Shown here one piece after another: positions 1 through 40,605 of a DNA stretch of 64,000 nt. A program made the translations under genes and the position numbers. Position 1 is the stretch's first letter. Each line of letters begins with the position of its first letter. A model generated the notes under the pieces. It did no database searches and was not told the origin of the DNA. It saw only the letters and a program-made list of their open reading frames with translations. This DNA is from an uncultured Lachnospira sp. (GTDB taxonomy: Bacteria; Bacillota; Clostridia; Lachnospirales; Lachnospiraceae): the NCBI GenBank assembly GCA_934359185.1, contig CAKRLE010000010.1:1-64000 (forward strand). Direction: 5' to 3'.

Positions 1-425
1 TCATTCTTTACATATGTTCCATCTGCATTCTGATATTTCTTGCCACTCGAATCCTGCTTCCAGCCTGGTGTTGCATGGCCACTATTTGAACCACTTCCTG
101 TTGTACTATTCGGTATCTTTCCTTTTACCCACGCACCATTCTCATCTACATAGTATCTGTTATTATCTACCCACTCTGACTTTGCCATTGTTCCATCACT
201 CTTTAGATAATAATTTCCTACCCAGACGCTCTTCTGCATCACTCCTGCTGCATCCATATAGTACCAGTTTCCGCTTATCTGTCTCCATCCTTTTACCATA
301 TATCCATTTGCGTCAAAGTAATATGTCTTTCCGTCTACTGTCTTTGTCTCATTCTTTACATATGTTCCATCTGCATTCTGATATTTCTTGCCACTCGAAT
401 CCTGCTTCCAGCCTGGTGTTGCATG
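1..425. repeat. 77-bp direct repeat inside lysozyme gene
   Basis: Bases 1-77 and 349-425 are identical by eye. They encode the same segment (GWKQDSSGKKYQNADG and flanks) before successive repeat blocks, 348 bp apart, which is 116 codons and therefore in frame. The first copy may extend beyond the window. Identity at silent sites suggests recent duplication or conversion, so the module number could vary by recombination. Confidence 0.85.
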
Positions 426-1187
426 TTCATTCCCTGAACCACCTCCAGAAGTACTACCCACAACAAAATCCTGTAACAGCATATCCATATCAACTCTAGC
501 ATTAATGCCACTAATTGAACCATTGCTGCTATACTGCCATATCAAAGCACCATTTTCTTCACTATATCCTTGATAATCGCCATAACCAGCAATCCATCTA
601 TACCCAGATAACTCATCTTTATATAAAACATGCTCATTATAATTAACATTTGCATAATAGCCCGCACTACATCCCATAGCACTTATTCCTCTAAGGATTA
701 TCTTTACATAATCCGTTATTCGACGTCGTCCCTCATCAGACATATATTCAAGTCCATTCTGCTCATAATATGAACTTGCCTCAACATCAATGTATACTCC
801 CATTGGAGGTTTTCTTCCATTAAGCATTCTCTTTATATGTTCAACCTCACTATACGCTTCTGCCTCTGATAAAGCATACGAAAACAAATATACACCATAT
901 GGAATATTAAGTCGCTCACATTCTCTCATATTATACTCTGCATATTCATCATCCTGACTCGTTTCATCATTTCCATATCCAACCCTTATTATTACAAATG
1001 AAGCTTGTCCTGATTTTTTTACTCTATCCCAATCTATACTTCCCTGATGTTTAGAAACATCAATTCCTATCATTCCCTTTTTTAATATTGTAGATGCATA
1101 CACATCATTCCCCATTGCTCCAAGTAATAATACAAACATCATTACTGTTATAATTATTTTACTAAATAGTGTTTTGCCCTTTTTCAT
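1..1187 (-). CDS. GH25 lysozyme with choline-binding-type repeats (C-terminus off window)
   Basis: Secreted muramidase-type cell-wall hydrolase. The frame is open from an ATG at 1187 through the left edge, so the C-terminus is missing. Residues about 1-32 form a signal peptide (MKKGK start, hydrophobic stretch, VYAS). A GH25 domain follows, with GIDVSKHQGSIDW, a YIDVEAS segment and a WQYSS segment near its end. After a Gly/Ser linker come aromatic repeats such as GWRQISGNWYYMDAAG and DNNRYYVDENGAW, typical of CW_binding_1 (choline-binding) modules. A GGGAGA sequence precedes the ATG. It is followed upstream by choline-incorporation genes, which suggests the repeats bind phosphocholine on the cell's own glycan. 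The family assignment is firm; the choline ligand is inferred, because related repeats in clostridia can bind other wall polymers. Confidence 0.9.
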   Translation of the reverse strand, partial: MKKGKTLFSKIIITVMMFVLLLGAMGNDVYASTILKKGMIGIDVSKHQGSIDWDRVKKSGQASFVIIRVGYGNDETSQDDEYAEYNMRECERLNIPYGVYLFSYALSEAEAYSEVEHIKRMLNGRKPPMGVYIDVEASSYYEQNGLEYMSDEGRRRITDYVKIILRGISAMGCSAGYYANVNYNEHVLYKDELSGYRWIAGYGDYQGYSEENGALIWQYSSNGSISGINARVDMDMLLQDFVVGSTSGGGSGNEHATPGWKQDSSGKKYQNADGTYVKNETKTVDGKTYYFDANGYMVKGWRQISGNWYYMDAAGVMQKSVWVGNYYLKSDGTMAKSEWVDNNRYYVDENGAWVKGKIPNSTTGSGSNSGHATPGWKQDSSGKKYQNADGTYVKN

Positions 1188-1227
1188 TTTATAGTTTCTC
1201 CCATATGTATTGTATATAATATATCAA

Positions 1228-1249
1228 AAGGCTGCCAAAAGGCAGCCTT
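1228..1249 (-). terminator. Hairpin terminator after BCCT transporter gene
   Basis: A perfect 9-bp stem (AAGGCTGCC / GGCAGCCTT) with a 4-base loop lies between the transporter stop codon at 1316 and the lysozyme start at 1187. On the minus strand it is followed by a short T-rich stretch. It probably ends the phosphocholine-glycan transcript before the lysozyme gene. Confidence 0.7.
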
Positions 1250-1315
1250 ACAAACCCAATATAGTATAATTCTATTAATTAAATTAAGCAATAATAATAT
1301 TGCATAAAATAAAAA

Positions 1316-2845
1316 TCATTTGTGCTCTAATTCTTTAATATATTTCTTGGCATCTTTCAAAAAACTAATTGCAATCATTACAATCACCACTCCTATTGGA
1401 AACGCAGCTATAATACTGACCGATTGAAGATTATTCATAGAACTTTCAGCAAAAAGCAGTGCCATAGGAAGCATTATCAATAAAATACACCACATAAACT
1501 GTATCATTTTATTGGGCTGTTCATCATTTGCAAGTTTTCGATAGCTATAACATGATACCGTAAGTGCTATTGAATCAAACGATGTAGCATAAAATGCAAT
1601 CATTGTAATAAGAACAATGCACATAATTAATGGTGCACATGGAAGTGATTTTATAATTGAAACTATAAGCGTATATAAATCTCCATCAGCATTATATTGT
1701 GATATAAAATCAGCTGCTCCTGTCATCTGTTTACCCATAGAATAATTACCTAATATTATAAAACTTGATAATGTTGAGCCAACGCCAAATACATAACCAC
1801 CTACAATAGTCTGTCGAATAGTTCTTCCTCTCGATATATTACCGATAAAAAACGGAGCAGCCACACACCACACCATCCAATATGCCCAGTAATAGATTGT
1901 CCATGTCTGCGGAAAATTAGTTGTTCGTAATGAATCCGTATATGTAGATAATCCTATAAAATTTTGAATCATTCTGCCCAATGAAGAAAAACCTGTTTCC
2001 AGTATATACCTCGTCTCACCACCAAATAAAAGTACAAAACCCATTAATCCAAAGAAAAGATATATACAAACTTTTGCAAGAATACTTATTCCCTTAAAAC
2101 CGTGTAAAAGAGAATATGTATACACGATACATGTAATAATTAAAATGATTATATTTATTACCGTACGGCTGACATGCATATGAAAAATATCCTCTATTAT
2201 TGCTGCCATAAGAGGCGTCGCCACACTAAATGTTGTAGCTGTGCCAGCTATCAATGCAAAAACAGCAAGTAAATCTATCAATCTTCCAGGTACTCCATCT
2301 GTATGCTTTCCTAAAATCGGTCTACATGCTTCAGAATACTTCTGGCGACTGCGCTTACGTACATGAAGCATAAAACCAAACGCAACTGCAAGAACAAGAT
2401 AAAATCCCCATGGGATAAAACTCCAATGAAATAAAGGATACACACCAGCCCAATCCTGAATACTCCCCATCTCAGCCATATGAGGATCCGTTGCATACAT
2501 AATCCATTCAGAAAATGAATAGAATAAAATATCTGCTGCGAGTCCACATGTAAACATCATACATCCCCACGAAAAAAATGAAAACTTTGGTTTTTCATCT
2601 GGCTCCCCCAATACTATATCACCATACTTAGAAGCAGCTATGTATATAGATAATATAAATATCCCCAAGCCAATTATTAAATAATAGACTCCAAAAGTAT
2701 CACCAAAAAAATATCTTATCTGTCCTAATATGATATTAGATTGTTCCGGCATTGCAAAAAACACCACACATAATCCAATAATAATTATCAATGGAACTAA
2801 TGTTATAATCCAATCAATCTGCTTTTTCTCTATATTCTCTCCCAT
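1316..2845 (-). CDS. BCCT family choline/betaine transporter
   Basis: Integral membrane protein of 509 residues, about 12 hydrophobic segments. It belongs to the betaine-choline-carnitine transporter family: the aromatic signature (YYWAYWMVWCVAAPFFIG, near residue 315) is followed by ISRGRTIR, as in BetT/OpuD/CaiT proteins. It would import a quaternary amine. Its position 21 bp downstream of the fused choline kinase / cytidylyltransferase gene, in the same direction, makes choline the likely substrate. It would then replace the DMT-type LicB permease of pneumococcal lic1 loci. Family is certain; substrate is inferred from context. Confidence 0.88.
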   Translation of the reverse strand: MGENIEKKQIDWIITLVPLIIIIGLCVVFFAMPEQSNIILGQIRYFFGDTFGVYYLIIGLGIFILSIYIAASKYGDIVLGEPDEKPKFSFFSWGCMMFTCGLAADILFYSFSEWIMYATDPHMAEMGSIQDWAGVYPLFHWSFIPWGFYLVLAVAFGFMLHVRKRSRQKYSEACRPILGKHTDGVPGRLIDLLAVFALIAGTATTFSVATPLMAAIIEDIFHMHVSRTVINIIILIITCIVYTYSLLHGFKGISILAKVCIYLFFGLMGFVLLFGGETRYILETGFSSLGRMIQNFIGLSTYTDSLRTTNFPQTWTIYYWAYWMVWCVAAPFFIGNISRGRTIRQTIVGGYVFGVGSTLSSFIILGNYSMGKQMTGAADFISQYNADGDLYTLIVSIIKSLPCAPLIMCIVLITMIAFYATSFDSIALTVSCYSYRKLANDEQPNKMIQFMWCILLIMLPMALLFAESSMNNLQSVSIIAAFPIGVVIVMIAISFLKDAKKYIKELEHK

Positions 2846-2866
2846 ATAAATCCCCCTTGTACAATA

Positions 2867-4618
2867 TCATAATTTCTCTTTTACGATTTTATAGTATTCT
2901 TTAGCATACCTATATTGACGAATTGAATATTCTCCGAAATCAACTCCCAAATTTCTTTTATATTCGCACCAATTACTCCATAAAAGACCGCACACAGCAA
3001 TATAGCAATAAATCTTTATTCTTATATTATCTGGACAATTATATTCAAAATATATATCAATTAATTTATCAACCTGACTTCTATCATATAGTGAATATAT
3101 GCAAAACATTGCAATATCGACATGGGGATCCTGCATACCTGCATATTCCCAATCGATTAATCTTATATCTTCATTTCCATTACTATCTATTGTAAATAGA
3201 AAATTGTCTGGAACTGCATCTATATGTGTTAAACATTTCTTACCAACATGTTTTTCTACATATGGTCTTAACGACAATACATTTGTTTTAGTTAATTCAT
3301 AATCTTTATAGACTGATTTCACTCCATTCCACAATGATTCATAAAACTCAATCTGACCAAATATATCAAAAGCATGATCAACTTTTAAATTCATTTCATG
3401 GAATGTTTTTAAACATTTCATACACTTCTTTAAATCATCAACATTGTCGGGATCACATACCCTTGCACCTTCTAAAAATTCAGTAATTTTATAGCCATTA
3501 TCTGAATTAATATATTTAATATCATCACATAAATGCTTATCAGATATAACATTATATACTTGAGCTTCCTGTTTTCTATTAATTAACTGTTCTGTCCCCT
3601 CCCCCGGAATTCGCATTATGTATTTTTTTCTATTACACGAAAACAAAAAAGATCTATTAGTCATTCCCTTTTTTAACACATTAATTTCTGTTATATCATT
3701 TTCATTTACATTTAATGCATTACATATTATATCAATTGCATCAGATTTAAGATGGTCAGACTCACTATCCAATTCCCTTAATTGTTCATATGTATTTATC
3801 TCTATAACATCAGATGAATTAACAATCTTTGCTGCTACTGCCATCTTTCCATCATTATATAATGCCTCTTCCCAGAATCTATCGTCATAAATAGCATTCT
3901 TACACAATTCTTCTATACGCCCTCTGACTAACCTGGAATCTTCATCATCCAAATAACTTATTCCAATCATTTTATTTCCATCTGATAATCTAGGAACTGT
4001 CACCAATTCAAGCTTTCGATTAACATGTACAATACTATCATCGTCATATGTATCAGTTACCATATACCACGAATACAGTTCATTTCTTGAAAAAGGATTT
4101 TTCTTACACCATATATCACATGGAATAATATATGAATTACCTATATATCTAACTGCTTTTGCTAATGAATGTAAGTTATTCTTTGTTTTATATTCTGAAT
4201 TAATAATTAATTCAACCCCATAATCATCAATAAGATACTCATATCGCTCTTTCATAAATCCAACAATGACATATATCTTATTAATCCCAACTTCATGGAG
4301 CTGCCTTATAATTCTTTCTATTAGGACTTCTCCCTTAACCTCTATAAGCCCCTTAGGAACTTCAGTATTAATCGGAACCATACGCATACCATATCCTGCT
4401 GCAAGAATTATTGCATTTTGAGGCATTTCCTTTTTTATCATATCAATAGTTTTTTTAGTAATATCTAAATTACTAGAAAGATATCCATTATTAACTAATG
4501 CTTTTATTGTTTTATTCACCATTCCAAGTGAATAGCCTGATAGCTCAGCTATAGTTCTTTGATTTATTTTAGATGTTCTATAAATAGTGTTCAAAATATC
4601 CTTTTCTTGTATGTTCAT
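2867..4618 (-). CDS. HTH-LicC-LicA fusion: choline-phosphate cytidylyltransferase and choline kinase
   Basis: Trifunctional protein of about 583 residues. Residues 1-60 form a winged helix-turn-helix (ILNTIYRTSKINQRTIAEL...). Next comes a LicC-type nucleotidyltransferase with the LAAGYGMRM...PKGL signature around residues 69-90. The C-terminal part is a LicA/APH-type kinase with the HIDAVPDNFL catalytic motif near residue 468 and IDWEYAGMQDP near 490. It should phosphorylate choline and convert phosphocholine to CDP-choline, and may sense or regulate the pathway through its HTH. An in-frame TTG at 4648 exists, but the ATG at 4618 has AAAGG nine bases upstream and is preferred. It lies between licD and the BCCT transporter. 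Domain calls are strong; autoregulation is inferred. Confidence 0.88.
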   Translation of the reverse strand: MNIQEKDILNTIYRTSKINQRTIAELSGYSLGMVNKTIKALVNNGYLSSNLDITKKTIDMIKKEMPQNAIILAAGYGMRMVPINTEVPKGLIEVKGEVLIERIIRQLHEVGINKIYVIVGFMKERYEYLIDDYGVELIINSEYKTKNNLHSLAKAVRYIGNSYIIPCDIWCKKNPFSRNELYSWYMVTDTYDDDSIVHVNRKLELVTVPRLSDGNKMIGISYLDDEDSRLVRGRIEELCKNAIYDDRFWEEALYNDGKMAVAAKIVNSSDVIEINTYEQLRELDSESDHLKSDAIDIICNALNVNENDITEINVLKKGMTNRSFLFSCNRKKYIMRIPGEGTEQLINRKQEAQVYNVISDKHLCDDIKYINSDNGYKITEFLEGARVCDPDNVDDLKKCMKCLKTFHEMNLKVDHAFDIFGQIEFYESLWNGVKSVYKDYELTKTNVLSLRPYVEKHVGKKCLTHIDAVPDNFLFTIDSNGNEDIRLIDWEYAGMQDPHVDIAMFCIYSLYDRSQVDKLIDIYFEYNCPDNIRIKIYCYIAVCGLLWSNWCEYKRNLGVDFGEYSIRQYRYAKEYYKIVKEKL

Positions 4619-4667
4619 GTACATTAACCTTTCGTATTTTGTGAACAATTAGAGTATATGATATTAT

Positions 4668-4695
4668 AGGAATATTTTCAACTATAAATATTCCT
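4668..4695. promoter_or_regulatory. Inverted repeat upstream of HTH-licCA, candidate operator
   Basis: Two perfect 10-base arms (AGGAATATTT / AAATATTCCT) are separated by 8 bases. They overlap the licD stop codon and directly abut a TATAAT sequence (minus strand, 4663-4668), about 50 bases before the HTH-licCA start. The geometry suits a dimeric regulator, plausibly the HTH domain of the downstream protein. A weak hairpin is the alternative. Confidence 0.5.
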
Positions 4696-5518
4696 ATAAT
4701 AAATATTGTCCCATATCTAATTTTATTATTTGATGCGTTTTTCTATCCTCTTCAGGTGGAAGCTGCATATAATCTCCATATGCTTGTGTCAAAAATGCAT
4801 CATAATCCTCTGGAATTTTAAATAAATCATTCTCAAATTTAATATCAATCATCTTATCAAATATCGCTTTAGGAAAATACCAATAATTATAACAAGAACC
4901 CGAGTGAACACATATATTATGTGTATTCTCATGCTTATCATATAATTTTTCCATTTTAGCCTTTATGTATCTGGATGAAAATACATGTGATAAAATCTGA
5001 ACAGGAAGGAATTTAAAATATTTCAGATTTGATTCCCCTTTCCACACCTTAAAACCACCTTTTATAAGCAGCATATGTGCCAAAAGCTGCATCCTAAACG
5101 CTTCAATTTTTCTTATAATATTATTGTCTGATATATAATAGTACGGAAAAACATCTACAAAAATCTCATTATGTTTTGCCATTGCATTTGACTTATTTTC
5201 TATATACTGTGTTCCTAAAAGTCTTATTTTGGTGAATACTAATGGATTTTCATCATTAGTATTATAATTGTCAACAAAATATTTATCACCGAGTTCCTTC
5301 TGTGCGACTTCTAAAAATCTTCTATAATCTTCCTTAGGCATTCCTATATCCATATCATCGTCCCATGGTATAAATCCTCCATGCCTAACTGCACCCAACA
5401 TTGAACCTGCATCAAGAAAATAATTAATATCATATTTTTTACATATTCTCTTAATTTCTCTTGCAATCATTAACTGAGCCTTGCGTAATTGCTCATGCTC
5501 GTTAGTTTTTTCCATCAA
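4694..5518 (-). CDS. licD: LicD family phosphotransferase
   Basis: Cytoplasmic protein of 274 residues of the LicD/FKTN nucleotidyltransferase-fold family. The hallmark LGAVRHGGFIPWDDDMDIGM spans about residues 40-60, where the Asp cluster coordinates metal. LicD enzymes move phosphocholine from CDP-choline to sugars of surface polymers. The gene immediately precedes the fused choline kinase / cytidylyltransferase gene, which supplies CDP-choline. The start ATG at 5518 is preceded by GGGAGAT. An earlier ATG is absent. Confidence 0.88.
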   Translation of the reverse strand: MMEKTNEHEQLRKAQLMIAREIKRICKKYDINYFLDAGSMLGAVRHGGFIPWDDDMDIGMPKEDYRRFLEVAQKELGDKYFVDNYNTNDENPLVFTKIRLLGTQYIENKSNAMAKHNEIFVDVFPYYYISDNNIIRKIEAFRMQLLAHMLLIKGGFKVWKGESNLKYFKFLPVQILSHVFSSRYIKAKMEKLYDKHENTHNICVHSGSCYNYWYFPKAIFDKMIDIKFENDLFKIPEDYDAFLTQAYGDYMQLPPEEDRKTHQIIKLDMGQYLL

Positions 5519-11056: not shown

Positions 11057-12045
11057 CTATCTAAATTTCACTTTTATTTGAGAGCAACAATATACTGAAT
11101 AAGCATATGAAATTAAATTTATTATACACACTCCTATAATCATACATATTGTTTTTTTTATAATTCCAGAATTCCATATCATAGGATCCAACACTAATGG
11201 TCTTTGTAGAAAATAAATCATTAGGGACATACCACCTAATATATTTGTATATCCTGATACTATTTTGCTATGTTTTATAATTGCCCCACATATTTCAATT
11301 ATAGCTAACGCACTACATCCAAATACAATATTAGAAATTAGCATAAACCCATAAAAATTAATTGGTTTATTAAAAACAATTCCATTATTGTAATCAACAT
11401 AATTCATAAAAATAATAGCGCCAACAAATGCAATTGCAAATATTGTTCTTTTCATCATTACTACACATTTTTGCGATATACTAATATGTCTTTGAATCTC
11501 TGCATATAAAACGCCTACCGCAAATGACATACTATACAAATTAGCCATTCCGTATGTTTCTGGAATCATGTAACACATTAATAGCATTACCCCCCCATCA
11601 ATATGATTCGCCTTTTATATTCATGTACATAACTATACACAATAAAAAATAGTATATACCACACTAACAACAATTTCAAAAACCATAATTCACTATTAAT
11701 AGCAGGTAATCTATTCAGCATAAATATTTCAATAAATATATTACCCCTATCGTATTCTATCTTATGCAAAACAAGCAATATTGTAGCAGCTAATATATTA
11801 ACTACAACCGCAGGTATATATATCTTTTTAAATTTTTTCTCCCAATAATTACATAAACCATTTTTATAATATGACATTACAAGTCCGTATCCCGATAAAA
11901 ACAAAAATCCAAACATACACGTTGAACGAATAAAAGTAAGCCATCCCCCTCCTATATCATATCCCCATATACATATATGATAAAATAATATTCCAATAGC
12001 AAAAACAAATTTTGTCAAATTAGATTCATCAACTTTAATATTCAT
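11057..12045 (-). CDS. AT3 family O-acyltransferase, split by a G7 tract (OFF as read)
   Basis: Two consecutive frames make up one membrane acyltransferase. The first (12045 down to 11587) begins MNIKVDESNLTKFVFAIG and holds the N-terminal membrane helices; the second (down to 11057) holds the remaining helices (VGVLYAEIQ...). The first frame stops right after a run of seven G (minus strand, 11590-11596) with GGG GGG TAA. One additional G gives GGG GGG GTA ATG CTA and joins the halves into about 330 residues, normal for this family. AT3 proteins move acetyl or other acyl groups across the membrane onto glycans. As read the product would be truncated at about 152 residues; slippage is the likely switch. 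Confidence 0.85.
11590..11596. repeat. Poly-G/C homopolymer (7) in acyltransferase gene
   Basis: A run of seven C on the plus strand (G on the coding strand) in a strongly AT-rich gene, exactly at the frame break. It is one of only two such runs of seven that I noticed in the window. Confidence 0.9.
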
Positions 12046-12053
12046 ACTTACCT

Positions 12054-13388
12054 CTAACGAAAATCATATAAATTATTTTCTGCCCCACTATTATAATCAT
12101 ATGCAGAATAAATAGTAAGAACTATATTGGGCTTTGTCGTTTCAATATATGTTTCAAGACTGCCATCAAAACATCTAAGGTCTATCTCCTCTATATCAGA
12201 ATAAGTACATGCTAAAAAAGGAGAAACAACATCTGAATAACTCTCTGTTAATAACAAAATTTTAAATTTGTTATCTTTTTCGTTGTTTTTATATGTTTTT
12301 TCAGGTTGGATACCATGATTCCAGATATTATATGTAGGCCAACTACTCATATCATATATAACATCTTCAAATTTTCCATTCAAATTCAATCCATATTTAG
12401 GTACAGTTTTCGATATATTAGTACTAAATAATGGTAACCATACCTCCATGTCATCTTTAGAGGTATATACTGTTGTTAATGATTTTCCAAATCCACCCAT
12501 ATATATATTATCTGTTTTTTCAATTATATAATTACCCTTGTCAAATACACTTTTATCCGATTCTATCCCCTGTAATTCATCTATAACATCTGATATTTTT
12601 TCTGCACCCCATATGCCATACTCTGGTCTCCAGTGATGATCTGTCTTAAAAAACACATCGCTCCAGCTAATATTTGCTGCTTTTAAATCCTGCCTTAAAT
12701 CATGAGTATATATATTATTTGCTTTTAATTTATCAAGTACTTCATCCATCATTACATTACTGTATTCTTTATAACCTCTTGTAATAATATTATCAGCTTC
12801 ATCTGGATCTACTGGCGATGGTACAGCAATGTATGCATAATTAATCCCAGATTCTTTTAAATATGATGCAAATGATATAATGTTATTTGCTTCTGCATCA
12901 TTATTTTTATAAGCTCTTTCTGCTGAATATCTTCCATCAGACATTTTATATACAATATTTCCATATGAATCAGAAACAATATTCATTCCTATACTCTTAT
13001 TGAATGATTTAGATACTTTTTCGCACATATTCGTAAATGTAAAATAATCAGATGAATACTTTTCAAATTGAGAATATATTTGAGCAATTTTACCACTCTT
13101 AGTATTAGATGTTGTATTTGAACCTTCTATTACCTCCTGATTATATGCTTTTTCAGATTTGTATGGATATAATTTTTTCCAATTAATATCAACAACATCT
13201 GGTGAATATATACTTCCACCTTCCATCGATGTTATAGTTTTATCAATCCATTCAGCCTTCATATTCAGCATATCCACGCATATATTTTTCAGCCCTATCT
13301 GATAACATATACTAATTAATCCTATAATCATAACTATAACGATTACAGATGAGGAACCATTAAGTTTATATTTTTTATCTCTTTTCAT
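12054..13388 (-). CDS. DHHW family / AlgX-AlgJ-like O-acetylation protein
   Basis: Protein of 444 residues with one N-terminal membrane segment (about residues 13-31) and a long extracytoplasmic domain. The FFKTDHHWRPEYG segment near residue 249 gives the DHHW family its name, and LLLTESYSDVVSPFLA near 385 matches the SGNH-like nucleophile region of AlgJ/AlgX, with Thr-Glu-Ser-Tyr replacing the usual GDS(F/Y). Such proteins take acetyl groups delivered by an MBOAT partner and place them on polysaccharide outside the membrane. The MBOAT gene lies 16 bases upstream. If that gene is out of frame, this protein would have no acyl supply. Confidence 0.82.
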   Translation of the reverse strand: MKRDKKYKLNGSSSVIVIVMIIGLISICYQIGLKNICVDMLNMKAEWIDKTITSMEGGSIYSPDVVDINWKKLYPYKSEKAYNQEVIEGSNTTSNTKSGKIAQIYSQFEKYSSDYFTFTNMCEKVSKSFNKSIGMNIVSDSYGNIVYKMSDGRYSAERAYKNNDAEANNIISFASYLKESGINYAYIAVPSPVDPDEADNIITRGYKEYSNVMMDEVLDKLKANNIYTHDLRQDLKAANISWSDVFFKTDHHWRPEYGIWGAEKISDVIDELQGIESDKSVFDKGNYIIEKTDNIYMGGFGKSLTTVYTSKDDMEVWLPLFSTNISKTVPKYGLNLNGKFEDVIYDMSSWPTYNIWNHGIQPEKTYKNNEKDNKFKILLLTESYSDVVSPFLACTYSDIEEIDLRCFDGSLETYIETTKPNIVLTIYSAYDYNSGAENNLYDFR

Positions 13389-13404: not shown

Positions 13405-14819
13405 TTAGAAATTAAAGTATATAAATGGGTTATAATTGCTATCAATTGTTACACAACATGCTAATATAAACAATATAACAACTCCAACCTGAGTTGTTAC
13501 ACTTTTTGCTTTTTCATTAAACGATATCTTGTTATTTAATACTTTCAACCATGGCATACATCCTACTATAGCAATAATTACATATCCAATATAATTCTTA
13601 ATATATAATTTTGTAACCCCTAATGCATATGAGCCAGAAGCTCCTCCTGTAAACATAATTCCTATATAATTAACTGCATCTGATATATTATCAGCTCTGA
13701 ATAGTACCCATAACAAAAGAACGACTAATAACGTATAAGCATGTCTCAATATCACAATTATTATATTTTTCTTTCTATCATATAGCTTTAACTGTTTCTC
13801 GATTATCAAAAATACAAAATAACAAAATCCCCATAACCAGAAAGTATAATTTGCTCCATGCCATATACCCGTTAACATCCATACAATAAATAAATTGAAA
13901 AACATTCTAGGCTTACTGCATCTATTCCCTCCAAGAGGTATATATACATAATCTCTAAACCAACTGCTTAATGATATATGCCATCTTCTCCAAAATTCTG
14001 TTATACTTCCTGATATATATGGATAATTAAAGTTCTCTGGAAATTTAAATCCAAATATCGCACCAAGTCCTATTGCCATATCAGAATATCCAGAAAAATC
14101 AAAATATATCTGTAACATATATCCAACAGCCCCTATCCAAGCAAAACCTACGCTTAATTCATTTTGCCCAAGTAGCCCGAAAGCTTTATCAGCTAAAACA
14201 GCCATTTGGTTAGCTATTAGAACTTTCTTTGATAAGCCTATTGTAAATCTGGTTAATCCATAATTCACCCCCCCTTTTGAGGATTTCTAAGATTGTCTCT
14301 TATTGAGTCCCATCTTACAATTGGACCAGCTACAAGCTGGGGGAAAAAACTTATATACAATGCAACATTTAATATATTATGCTCTACCATGTCAGCATCT
14401 CTATATACATCTATCACATATGACATTGCCTGAAATGTGTAAAACGATATACCCAAAGGCAATGCAATTGACATTGTTAATTTTGCTTGAGGTATCAATT
14501 GACCAATCTGACTTGATACAAAAATTAAATATTTAAATACAAATAACATTCCAATATTATATATAAGCGTAATTATGAAAAACACTTTTTTTAATTTTGT
14601 TTCATTATATTTAGCAATTAAAAATGCCATTATGTAATTGACAATAACCGACATAAGAAGCAGAATCAGTTCTTTCCATCCACTTTCAAGATAAAATCCA
14701 ATACTCATAATAAGCAGGAACAAGTTTCTCGTTTGAACAGATTTGTTTCTTAAAAGCCAATATCCAATCAATGTTACAGGTAAAAACATAAACAAAAATA
14801 TACCAGATGCAAATACCAT
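13405..14819 (-). CDS. MBOAT O-acyltransferase (AlgI/DltB-like), split by a G7 tract (OFF as read)
   Basis: Membrane-bound O-acyltransferase of about 472 residues when joined. The first frame (14819 to 14265) starts MVFASGIFLFMFLPVTLIGY and includes SFYTFQAMSYVIDVYR. The second (14268 to 13405) contains GYSDMAIGLG, EFWRRWHISLSSWFRDY and TGIWHGANYTF with the catalytic-site His. The first frame stops after seven G (14268-14274) with GGG GGG TGA; an eighth G would give GGG GGG GTG AAT TAT and restore a seamless AlgI-like sequence (KGGVNYGLTRFTIGLSKK). AlgI-like proteins carry acetyl groups outward for transfer by the neighbouring DHHW protein. A sequencing error at a homopolymer is the alternative. 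Confidence 0.87.
14268..14274. repeat. Poly-G/C homopolymer (7) in MBOAT gene
   Basis: Seven C on the plus strand (seven G in the coding strand) exactly at the frame break of the MBOAT gene. Same length and same missing-one-base state as the tract at 11590. Confidence 0.9.
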
Positions 14820-21425: not shown

Positions 21426-22598
21426 TTATTTATTCATCTGCTTCCTGATGTCTGCATCAACTATCTCTTCACCGCTTCTACCTTTTAGCTGCTCTTTTGA
21501 TGCCTCACTAAGTCCGTTATTAACGGTAGCACACATATCACATGTGCTGCATTTATCCAGTTCTTCTTTCGTAACTTTACCATCTCTCAAATCTCTGACA
21601 ATCTTATTTTCATACATACTGTATTTATTCTTTGTCCAGAATTTAAGCTTATGTCTTATTACCCACCACGCTGGTTTCCAGATATATTTATGCATAGCTG
21701 GACTTACTGAACCTATCATCCAGCAGTCTCTGTCACAACAGCGAACTTTCTTACGGACTTCCTCTGCCTCTTTGCTATTCCATAATTCATCCCATGTCTG
21801 AACATTAAGGTTACCCATAACTTCTTTATCCTTAGTTCCATTACAAGGCATGACATCACCATAAGGATCTATAAAGAATGTATCAAAACTCATATCACAT
21901 GGAAGCAGTCTCTTCTGTCCATAAATATAATTAATTAATCCATGATTGAAATATGCCCTAAACCACTTTTTAGGGCTTTTAGATGTCAACAGTTCATTAA
22001 CAAGCTTTTCAAAATTCTTTGCAACCATTGGTCTGTCATGAATTATATTCTTAGCCTCCACAAAATAAAAACTATTATGAAGTGAAGCTGTTGCAAACTC
22101 CATTCCCATTTCATCAGATATCTTGTAAAGTGGAACAAGGTCTGGCGCATTCTTATCCTGAACGGTCATTCCAAAGCCAACATCTTTCATTCCCATTTCT
22201 CTTAATGTTTTAAGAGTCTGATATCCCTTCTGATATCCGTCATCTAGACCTCTTATCTCATTGTTGGTCTGCTCCAGTCCCTCTATAGATATCCTGATTC
22301 CTATATCTGGAAACTCTTTACACAAATCAACTATTCTATCTGTAAAGAATCCGTTAGTTGATATAACAATTCTATCACTCTTTTTGTATAATTCTCTCAC
22401 TATATCCTTAAGGTCTGTTCGTATAAATGGCTCTCCACCTGTTATATTGGTAAAATACATCTGTGGTAATTTTTTTATTGTCTCTACAGATATCTCTTCT
22501 TCTGGTTTAGAAGGTGCCTTATATCTATTACACATAGTACATCTTGCATTGCAACGATATGTCACAATAACTGTTCCGTTTAATTTTTTATCTGCCAT
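21426..22598 (-). CDS. Radical SAM/SPASM domain protein
   Basis: Protein of about 390 residues. The radical SAM cluster motif is CNARCTMC near residue 15, followed by NITGGEPFIR. A SPASM-type C-terminal region has cysteines in CDMSFDTFFIDPYGDVMPC and CCDRDCW, and another CSTCDMC motif lies near the end. It probably performs a radical modification with auxiliary iron-sulphur clusters. No precursor peptide gene is visible nearby, so the substrate may be a sugar or lipid intermediate of the glycan. AGGTGGAG before the ATG at 22598 decides the start. The substrate is unknown. Confidence 0.82.
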   Translation of the reverse strand: MADKKLNGTVIVTYRCNARCTMCNRYKAPSKPEEEISVETIKKLPQMYFTNITGGEPFIRTDLKDIVRELYKKSDRIVISTNGFFTDRIVDLCKEFPDIGIRISIEGLEQTNNEIRGLDDGYQKGYQTLKTLREMGMKDVGFGMTVQDKNAPDLVPLYKISDEMGMEFATASLHNSFYFVEAKNIIHDRPMVAKNFEKLVNELLTSKSPKKWFRAYFNHGLINYIYGQKRLLPCDMSFDTFFIDPYGDVMPCNGTKDKEVMGNLNVQTWDELWNSKEAEEVRKKVRCCDRDCWMIGSVSPAMHKYIWKPAWWVIRHKLKFWTKNKYSMYENKIVRDLRDGKVTKEELDKCSTCDMCATVNNGLSEASKEQLKGRSGEEIVDADIRKQMNK

Positions 22599-23616
22599 TA
22601 CATTCTCCACCTAACTTTTTATTCCAAACAATTTTATTCATGTATTTCAATATATGCTTTACCACAACTGCAAACGCTGTTGTTCCAATTAAGACTAATA
22701 CAACAGTACTTATATATCCTCCCCAGCTATATCCAAATATATAATTCAGCTTAATCTTTTCAATTATTCTAAATATAAACATATGTGAAAGATATATTTC
22801 CATACTTATTCCACTAAAAAATGCAGCCACTTTATTGTCTAGCAATCCCCCATTCGATAACATTGCATACATAACCAATGTGGCAGATACAATCAAGCAT
22901 CCTGCTACATTTCGATTAAGAATATAATATAATATAATATAATACAATACAATTGATACGGCTGTCACAGCCAGCATAATCCATATGTTAATGTGAGCTA
23001 TCTGTTCTCTATACAAATACAAAAGACCACCAGCTATGAAAAAGCATGCGCTGAATAATATATTATTTCGTCCAACATTAAAGTAATGCAGACACGCATA
23101 GTTATACATAAGACTTATTGCAAATGCAGTCCACGCCTTTTTCTTACTTGTAAGCAATGTACAAAAAAATGGAAATGCTATATAGAACACAAATATAAGT
23201 CCTATAAACCATCCAACTCCAATAACCGATATGTCACCACAATCTGGCAAAAATCCAAATAATAATGTAATATCCGCAAACGTTTCATATAACGCATCAA
23301 CCGATGGCGATACAATAAAATCAATTAAAACTAATATTGTAAAGAATGGTAATATTTTTCTAAATCTTTTAGCATAGAAATCTGTTATAGAAATTTTATT
23401 ATTTATTATCTTATCATAATATCCACAACACATGCCAAATGATGATATTACCATAAAAAGGAATACAAAATTAGTAAATGAATCTATACATGTGTTATAT
23501 ATCCATCCGCTAATATTGTACACACTATTTGCCTTAACATGCATCATTACAATTCCAAATGCAGCAAGCATTCTCAATCCATTCAATGCATTATAACGAT
23601 TATTTTCTTCACTCAT
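22588..23616 (-). CDS. AT3 family acyltransferase with pentanucleotide repeat
   Basis: Protein of about 342 residues, ten helices, starting near ALNGLRMLAAFGIVMMHV, the N-terminal AT3 signature with Arg and His. It would add an acyl group to the glycan. Overlaps the radical SAM gene by 11 bases. TTG at 23628 with GGAG three bases upstream is an alternative start. The coding strand contains ATTGT-ATTGT-ATTAT repeats around residues 221-232 (VLYYIILYYIL); because the unit is five bases, any gain or loss shifts the frame. As read, the frame is open. Confidence 0.82.
   Translation of the reverse strand: MSEENNRYNALNGLRMLAAFGIVMMHVKANSVYNISGWIYNTCIDSFTNFVFLFMVISSFGMCCGYYDKIINNKISITDFYAKRFRKILPFFTILVLIDFIVSPSVDALYETFADITLLFGFLPDCGDISVIGVGWFIGLIFVFYIAFPFFCTLLTSKKKAWTAFAISLMYNYACLHYFNVGRNNILFSACFFIAGGLLYLYREQIAHINIWIMLAVTAVSIVLYYIILYYILNRNVAGCLIVSATLVMYAMLSNGGLLDNKVAAFFSGISMEIYLSHMFIFRIIEKIKLNYIFGYSWGGYISTVVLVLIGTTAFAVVVKHILKYMNKIVWNKKLGGECNGR
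22921..22953. repeat. Pentanucleotide microsatellite in AT3 gene
   Basis: Four AATAT units followed by two AATAC units (plus strand), within a coding region. Units of five bases are classic contingency-locus repeats because copy change alters the frame. Confidence 0.75.
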
Positions 23617-23650
23617 AGTAATTACCAATGTCTCCTTGATACAGCATTAA

Positions 23651-39315: not shown

Positions 39316-40605
39316 ATGAATACTTTTTATGATAATTCCGCAGATAAAGATACAGATATGTTCATGTCGGCTATGAAACGTATACATGAAGATTCATCTT
39401 TATATCAGCAGTACGTAAAATTATCATCAAATCCTGTATGGAAAGAGCGATTTGATGATTTTCTAAGAGGCACAAAAACATTACCTCTTCTTTATGATCC
39501 ATTTTTCAAAGCTATATTCAATGCAGATACGCACAGGGACAGACTTTCTGAACTGATAAGTGCAATCCTGGGGCAGGAGGTTGAAGTTGTTGAAGTGATA
39601 CCTAATGAGGACAGCACTTTTACTGGAGCACTTATCATTATGGATATTGTCGTAAAAATGTCTGATGGAAGCTTTGCCAACATTGAGGTTCAGAAAGTTC
39701 CATATTTATTTCCAGCAGAACGGATATCATGCTATTCTTCTGATTTGCTTATGCGACAATACACAAGGCTTAAAAATACGAGATCTGTTAATGGAGATAA
39801 TATATTCTCATATAAGGATTTACATCATATCCACACAATTATTTTTTACGAAAAAAGCAGTGAAAAACTGCAAAGCCGAACTGATGAAAAATTATATTTT
39901 CATGTGGGCCGGACAGTATTTAATACTAATATAGATGTGGAACTCTTACAGGATTTTCACCTTATAAGCCTTGACACATTCATCAAATACAGATATTCTG
40001 ATATTATAAATGGTGATACTACTGTTACGGAATATGATTATGATGGCTCTGTATATAATTCAGGATTAAGCGAAGAATTGAAACAGAAACGTCTTATGTA
40101 TCTGATGCTTTTATCTACAAGTAATGTATCTGATATGAGTAAGCTTCTCAATCTATATCCCGAACTTTCAGGTATCATCAATGATATTAATGAATATCTT
40201 GTCAGACCTTGGGAGGTGTTGAATATGTTTTCAGAGGCATTGAGGATACTGGATAAAAATTCAATGGATTTACTTATAGACGAAATGAAGCAGGATGCTG
40301 ATAAAGCACGTGCTGAATTGAATGAGATTCAGAATGAATTAAGTCACGCCCATACGGAGTTGAACCAGACACAGTCAGAACTTAATCAGACGCAGTCAGA
40401 ACTTAATCAGACGCAGTCAGAACTTAATCAGACACAATCAGAACTTAATCAGACGCAATCAGAACTTAATCAGACGCAATCAGAACTTAATCAGGCACAA
40501 ATAAAACTAAAACAGGCTGAATCAGATTTACAATCAGAAAGAGAAGCATCACAAGCTGAAATAATGCGACTTAAATCAGAGCTCGCGAAATTTAAAAATA
40601 TATAG
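39316..40605 (+). CDS. Rpn/PD-(D/E)XK nuclease family protein with heptad repeat tail
   Basis: Protein of 429 residues of the Rpn (YhgA-like, PDDEXK_2) family. The N-terminal DPFFKAIFNADTHRDRL, the MDIVVKMSDGSFANIEVQ core (Asp and E-x-Q of the nuclease active site, about residues 108-125) and RISCYSSDLL are visible. The C-terminal third is a coiled coil made of repeated ELNQTQS heptads. Rpn proteins promote RecA-independent recombination in E. coli. AAGGAG lies upstream but about 25 bases from the ATG, so the ribosome site is weak. It lies between the arms of the inverted repeat. Confidence 0.85.
   Translation: MNTFYDNSADKDTDMFMSAMKRIHEDSSLYQQYVKLSSNPVWKERFDDFLRGTKTLPLLYDPFFKAIFNADTHRDRLSELISAILGQEVEVVEVIPNEDSTFTGALIIMDIVVKMSDGSFANIEVQKVPYLFPAERISCYSSDLLMRQYTRLKNTRSVNGDNIFSYKDLHHIHTIIFYEKSSEKLQSRTDEKLYFHVGRTVFNTNIDVELLQDFHLISLDTFIKYRYSDIINGDTTVTEYDYDGSVYNSGLSEELKQKRLMYLMLLSTSNVSDMSKLLNLYPELSGIINDINEYLVRPWEVLNMFSEALRILDKNSMDLLIDEMKQDADKARAELNEIQNELSHAHTELNQTQSELNQTQSELNQTQSELNQTQSELNQTQSELNQTQSELNQAQIKLKQAESDLQSEREASQAEIMRLKSELAKFKNI
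40357..40503 (+). repeat. Seven tandem 21-bp units in rpn-like gene
   Basis: Six ELNQTQS units and a seventh, ELNQAQI, with only a few silent differences. The unit is 7 codons, so copy-number change lengthens the coiled coil without shifting frame. Confidence 0.9.

Follow-up and report, generated by a model that had tools for sequence, protein, structure and literature searches.

A poly-G tract at the break of an MBOAT acyltransferase gene in a Lachnospiraceae polysaccharide locus looks like an on/off switch

Introduction

Why should two acylation genes of one polysaccharide locus each be split in two at a run of seven guanines? The window analysed here, a single 64-kb stretch of DNA, holds a minus-strand locus encoding a BCCT transporter, a choline-kinase and nucleotidyltransferase protein, two proteins matching LicD (one of them short), glycosyltransferases, a flippase-like Polysacc_synt protein, Wzy_C, a polysaccharide pyruvyl transferase and several acyltransferases. 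Within it an MBOAT gene and an Acyl_transf_3 gene are both split, and a DHHW/AlgX-like gene sits between them. From its MBOAT domain and the neighbouring AlgX-like partner, the first of these is predicted to encode an AlgI-like glycan O-acyltransferase.

For comparison, a nearest genus of 22 species, including an Acetatifactor muris MAG and Eubacterium oxidoreducens, was chosen by means of DnaX (79% identity within the genus) and transketolase (83% identity, in one genome among 387 sampled from the family). Acetatifactor muris belongs to Lachnospiraceae, and the nearest genus, together with names such as Lachnospiraceae bacterium, indicates that the host is presumably a gut-living commensal.

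Two acylation genes split at G runs

A survey of homopolymers found just two G or C runs of at least 7 in the window, and each lies exactly at the break of an acylation gene (Table 1). The first-pass annotation had described the MBOAT gene as broken at a G7 tract in the same manner as another acylation gene, with no further such tract noticed in the 64 kb and with an intact DHHW partner in between, and all three observations are borne out. The codon phase of the run is identical in the two genes (G GGG GGG, with the stop directly after), and in both the repeat unit of one base, not a multiple of three, lies inside the reading frame. Intact relatives exist for each, namely P0001 for the MBOAT and P0121 for the Acyl_transf_3 protein.

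Table 1 Features of the split genes and of a further repeat-bearing acyltransferase gene (positions in the window)
Feature	Position	Strand	Basis
G7 run on the coding strand, at which the MBOAT gene is split	14268..14274	-	run survey and ORF list
MBOAT O-acyltransferase, N-terminal ORF, 184 aa, stop immediately 3' of G7	14265..14819	-	ORF list
MBOAT O-acyltransferase, C-terminal ORF, 287 aa, PF03062, with conserved WHGANY motif	13405..14268	-	domain match and alignment
Intact DHHW/AlgX-like ORF, PF16822, presumed MBOAT partner	12054..13388	-	domain match
Second G7 run, break point of the Acyl_transf_3 gene	11590..11596	-	run survey and ORF list
Acyl_transf_3 N-terminal ORF, 152 aa, PF01757	11587..12045	-	domain match
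Acyl_transf_3 C-terminal ORF, 176 aa	11057..11587	-	ORF list and relatives
Intact Acyl_transf_3 ORF, 346 aa, PF01757 94.5 bits (cut-off 31), holds (ATATT)n	22588..23628	-	domain match
(ATATT)n pentanucleotide repeat, ~6.6 copies, possible further contingency repeat	22921..22953	-	TRF

The C-terminal piece of the MBOAT gene lies in a different frame from the N-terminal piece, reaches the C-terminus of the intact relatives and by itself scores 77.4 bits with PF03062 (cut-off 27). The PDB entries 6bug and 8jem match the intact P0001. The C-terminal part also carries the WHGANY motif, which we take to be the site of the catalytic histidine, so a truncated MBOAT that lacks this part should be inactive.

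The first-pass annotation had further held that two tracts in 64 kb argue for selection over chance. This argument from tract number alone was rejected, because 68 of 300 simulated 64-kb windows of matching base composition held two or more runs of at least 7 (mean 0.90). Synonymous redraws of the coding sequences gave a G run of at least 7 in 59 of 20,000 cases for the MBOAT N-terminal piece and in 233 of 20,000 for that of the Acyl_transf_3 gene. Among the remaining pieces the same redraws gave 31 to 1722 per 20,000, a spread which means that the base rate depends on the protein. Taken together, 36 intact ORFs would be expected to contain 0.284 such runs and contain none; GGG accounts for 71 of their 899 glycine codons. 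Two runs of this length per 64 kb are ordinary by base composition and rarer by codon choice, and their number by itself is weak evidence for selection.

MBOAT relatives in three reading frames

Relatives of the MBOAT protein were taken from the best 120 of 7998 matches to the C-terminal piece and the best 120 of 4927 matches to the N-terminal piece, and the frame states of P0001, P0126-P0130 and P0137-P0140 were read from the proteins and not from tract DNA. Among the matches listed for the C-terminal piece are P0001, a 471-aa protein in frame, and P0002, a 287-aa C-terminal fragment that is 99.65% identical to P0001 across 287 residues; the frame state therefore differs between almost identical sequences. 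Those listed for the N-terminal piece include five 203-aa fragments (P0126-P0130) of 98-99% identity and P0131 (197 aa, 91%), while the 184-aa form of the window itself is absent from them. The tail of P0126-P0130, ELWINQIYNRLIKESSNS, corresponds to the third frame of the window's own DNA, with one residue changed in P0126 and one in P0128. At the protein level, then, near-identical MBOAT sequences cover all three frames: the window at 184 aa, P0001 at 471 aa and P0126-P0130 at 203 aa.

The longest contig of P0002 and of P0128 is one and the same (52216 bases), which suggests that these two fragments are the halves of one split gene. Where the run of the window meets TG, the corresponding codon of P0001 is one for methionine, so P0001 cannot be just the window allele with a changed run length. 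No close MBOAT relative appeared among the sampled genomes, where the best listed identity was 54% (397 genomes), 52% (392 genomes) and 47% (nearest genus), these samples being overlapping subsets of larger groups. A single relative, at 42% identity, came from IMG/VR.

One junction broken throughout an MBOAT clade

The position of the break in other lineages was measured as the length of the tail past the anchor AGPIVRW, with the clade taken as rows P0126-P0151 of the N-terminal search. This anchor is present in 25 of the 26 clade rows (P0151 is without it) and in 90 of 94 more distant listed rows. Tails of 14-35 residues were found in 22 of the 25 anchored clade fragments, one of them (P0149) being an in-frame sequence that just stops at that point, compared with tails of 10-39 residues in 20 of 90 more distant fragments among the matches listed (Fisher test, 2.6e-09, a guide only since the rows are related).

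Exact back-translation indicates that the length of the G run alone can separate P0001/P0127, P0001/P0128, P0019/P0148, P0020/P0135 and P0015/P0143, the fourth of these pairs also permitting a second solution with a much shorter run. The off forms P0137, P0138 and P0140 can likewise differ by run length alone, with possible runs of up to 8, 11 and 10. When longer segments were back-translated, P0149/P0144, P0149/P0150 and P0147/P0145 did not fit, their upstream residues being different, and the mismatch control for these segments (0/92) is weak for the same reason. Weight was placed instead on shortened segments that begin just before the run. With these, P0144 and P0145 fit (P0150 has the same tail as P0145), run length alone does not bring P0126 and P0130 into agreement with P0001, whose letters past the run are different, and 13 of 15 same-lineage on/off pairs, which are not independent of each other, fit a change in G-run length compared with 0 of 83 mismatched pairs. 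A control at the DNA level found a G run of at least 7 at this junction in none of 105 distinct MBOAT genes of about 53% identity or less, the maximum being 6, in a single gene. Because breaks recur at the junction within the clade and none of the 105 distant genes carries the run, the putative switch site seems to belong to a single MBOAT clade.

These results bear directly on an alternative that we consider quite unlikely, namely that a sequencing or assembly error at the two homopolymers has split genes which in the cell are whole. Such errors usually fall in homopolymers, and P0138 and P0140, which do not differ in protein sequence upstream and whose longest contigs measure 120266 and 120265 bases, may be one assembly in two versions that differ by a single base. 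Yet 7 of the 8 A/T runs of 8-9 bases in the window lie inside ORFs, none of which ends at its run, and off forms with the same junction are listed on 8 (P0128), 22 (P0137) and 31 (P0140) contigs. Random errors, moreover, would not cluster at one junction throughout a clade.

Recent gene death, in which slippage has mutated acylation genes that the cell can now do without, would fit the breakage of both genes in the window and the shortness of the run. It is very unlikely, however, given that the C-terminal pieces remain open to the C-terminus of the intact copies and 96-97% identical to them, that near-identical sequences show differing states and that the break site recurs in several lineages. 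Programmed minus-one ribosomal frameshifting, by which some full-length protein would be made from a split gene, deserves the least credence and is unlikely as the cause of a full-length product: the phase of the run and the stop directly after it would suit it in both genes, but the downstream RNA fold is not unusual (z -0.96 and +0.99), the 203-aa MBOAT alleles sit in the other off frame, and relatives already in frame need no shift.

The Acyl_transf_3 gene

The C-terminal piece of the Acyl_transf_3 gene runs on to the C-terminus of the intact relatives. P0121 (329 aa, intact) is 97% identical to this piece and 93% identical to the N-terminal piece, and P0122-P0125 are intact and more distant relatives. 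P0122 (73% identical to the query) and P0123 (61%) have alanine at the position of the G run, which leaves no room for it, so that the run is absent there. Scoring of 20 candidates gave five matches, among which no split copy was found besides that of the window; the frame states met are thus the intact P0121 and the split window only. The longest contig of P0122 and of P0001 is the same (35242 bases), which suggests that the MBOAT and Acyl_transf_3 genes are both in frame on that contig. A switch at the Acyl_transf_3 G run is plausible. The on/off switch proposed for both genes by the first-pass annotation is accordingly well supported for the MBOAT gene, by relatives in three frame states and junction breaks in other lineages, and more weakly for the Acyl_transf_3 gene, with its off state in the window only and its alanine-bearing relatives.

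Proposed mechanism

We consider it highly likely that the MBOAT gene acts as a contingency locus whose phase variation takes effect in translation, with the Acyl_transf_3 gene probably behaving likewise. Judged from the sequence, the MBOAT gene very probably varies in phase by strand slippage and is off in this assembly, and its G run has the look of a naturally occurring switch that turns on and off at random in a bacterium presumed to be a commensal. The switch reading is strongly supported for this gene because of the three frame states of its relatives and the junction breaks in other lineages. The run, which stands before the segment GLxRFxIGLxKK, would slip in replication and move a lineage, presumably reversibly, among one in-frame and two out-of-frame states, and this is the set of states that was observed for MBOAT. 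In the in-frame state the cell would produce the MBOAT protein, which would act together with its DHHW partner in acylating the surface polysaccharide made by this locus. Out of frame, as in the window, a truncated protein without WHGANY would be made and acylation would presumably be lost. The Acyl_transf_3 gene, its tract 2.7 kb from that of the MBOAT gene, would probably follow the same mechanism with its own G run. Switching of the MBOAT gene may confer some benefit. The first-pass annotation had also proposed an idle partner and several acylation states; the DHHW protein may indeed be idle when the MBOAT is off, since acylation systems such as AlgI with AlgX have two components (PMC9558356), and two tracts, were they to switch independently, could give up to four acylation states.

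Relation to known systems

A survey of phase-variable genes in Campylobacter (PhasomeIt) took runs of at least 7 as its poly-G cut-off, so that the run length of 7 in the window is the lowest that was counted as variable there, and its authors warn that some tracts mutate perhaps too rarely for true switching (PMC6321876). As in those genes, a coding poly-G run of at least 7 sets the frame of the gene here. In contrast to them, the present gene encodes an MBOAT and belongs to a Firmicute of the Lachnospiraceae type; the word 'acetyltransferase' is absent from the main text of that survey (PMC6321876). The oafA gene of Haemophilus influenzae confers phase-variable O-acetylation of lipooligosaccharide (PMC11868660), and thus resembles the MBOAT gene in a repeat-driven on/off state of glycan O-acetylation. 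It differs in its tetranucleotide repeats, which are known here from the entry of a reference listed in PMC9558356, where the name oafA is missing from the text displayed, and in its Gram-negative pathogenic host, whereas the present case combines a G run, an MBOAT and a presumed commensal. AlgI with AlgX and the DltB-type MBOAT systems share with this locus an MBOAT beside an AlgX-like/DHHW protein in a polysaccharide locus, but the available part of PMC9558356 makes no mention of a G-run switch such as the candidate present here.

Switching of glycan O-acetylation (oafA, PMC11868660) and poly-G switching (PMC6321876) are both already known. A literature search on titles and abstract openings found, among the entries listed, no poly-G switching of an MBOAT, nor any in Lachnospiraceae; the features that look new are the group to which the host belongs, the involvement of the MBOAT family and a switch site common to several lineages. 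A poly-G switch common to lineages of an acylation gene in presumed commensals, along with the repeat-bearing acylation genes and promoter-spacer runs described below, would be directly testable in metagenomes. Switching of glycan acylation could alter recognition by phages and antibodies.

Poly-G runs in the nearest genus and further repeats

Runs of at least 8 occur in 20 of the 22 genomes of the nearest genus. From these, 40 regions with 41 tracts were fetched, a selection that consists of runs of at least 9 plus some runs of 8 from G415, G416 and G417. In one species (G401) another MBOAT gene is split at the DNA level by a G9 run near its N-terminus (L133, 2517-2525), at a site different from that of the window. 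Comparison with 26 fetched of the 37 listed matches in the genus gave, for the 25 other genes, a longest G run of 3 at this site and, in 24 of them, both parts in one frame.

A G9-G10 run lies between a TTGACA-like -35 box and a TATAAT-like -10 box in 5 of the 37 tracts with clean 45-base flanks (L130, L134, L136, L141 and L160, with L130 and L141 near-identical), the counted spacers being 18-20. Shuffling of the flanks gave a mean of 0.67 such tracts, and 0 of 500 shuffles reached five. These promoter-spacer runs look like sites of transcriptional phase variation, and we read the ORFs downstream of all five as starting like those of secreted proteins. The five G7-G8 runs of L002 were set aside, four of them lying within open ORFs that they leave unbroken and one lying outside ORFs.

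The locus also holds a third frame-sensitive repeat, absent from the first-pass annotation, namely the (ATATT)n stretch in the intact acyltransferase ORF at 22588-23628. As its unit is five bases, gaining or losing a single unit would throw this ORF out of frame. A period-5 stretch at least as long arose in 239 of 20,000 synonymous redraws. Homologues of this acyltransferase at E 1e-40 were found in 0 of 22 genomes of the nearest genus, an empty result that carries no weight.

A multi-locus surface phasome in uncultured Lachnospiraceae is a wider and more tentative proposal, about which we are close to undecided. It would comprise MBOAT poly-G runs at two sites, the Acyl_transf_3 poly-G run, the pentanucleotide repeat of another Acyl_transf_3 gene and the promoter-spacer runs before secreted proteins, with the acylation pattern and the surface proteins drawn randomly in each lineage.

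Two minor observations concern the remainder of the window. At 3-5518 there is a choline theme, comprising a glycosyl hydrolase 25 protein with choline-binding repeats, the BCCT transporter, the choline-kinase/nucleotidyltransferase protein and LicD, which suggests that the glycan may be decorated with phosphocholine. A 21-base tandem repeat of about six copies (40366-40494) lies in ORF 39316-40605, which matches the PDDEXK_2 transposase family and ends in a coiled-coil-like stretch; as the repeat unit is a multiple of three, a change in length would leave the frame of this ORF unbroken.
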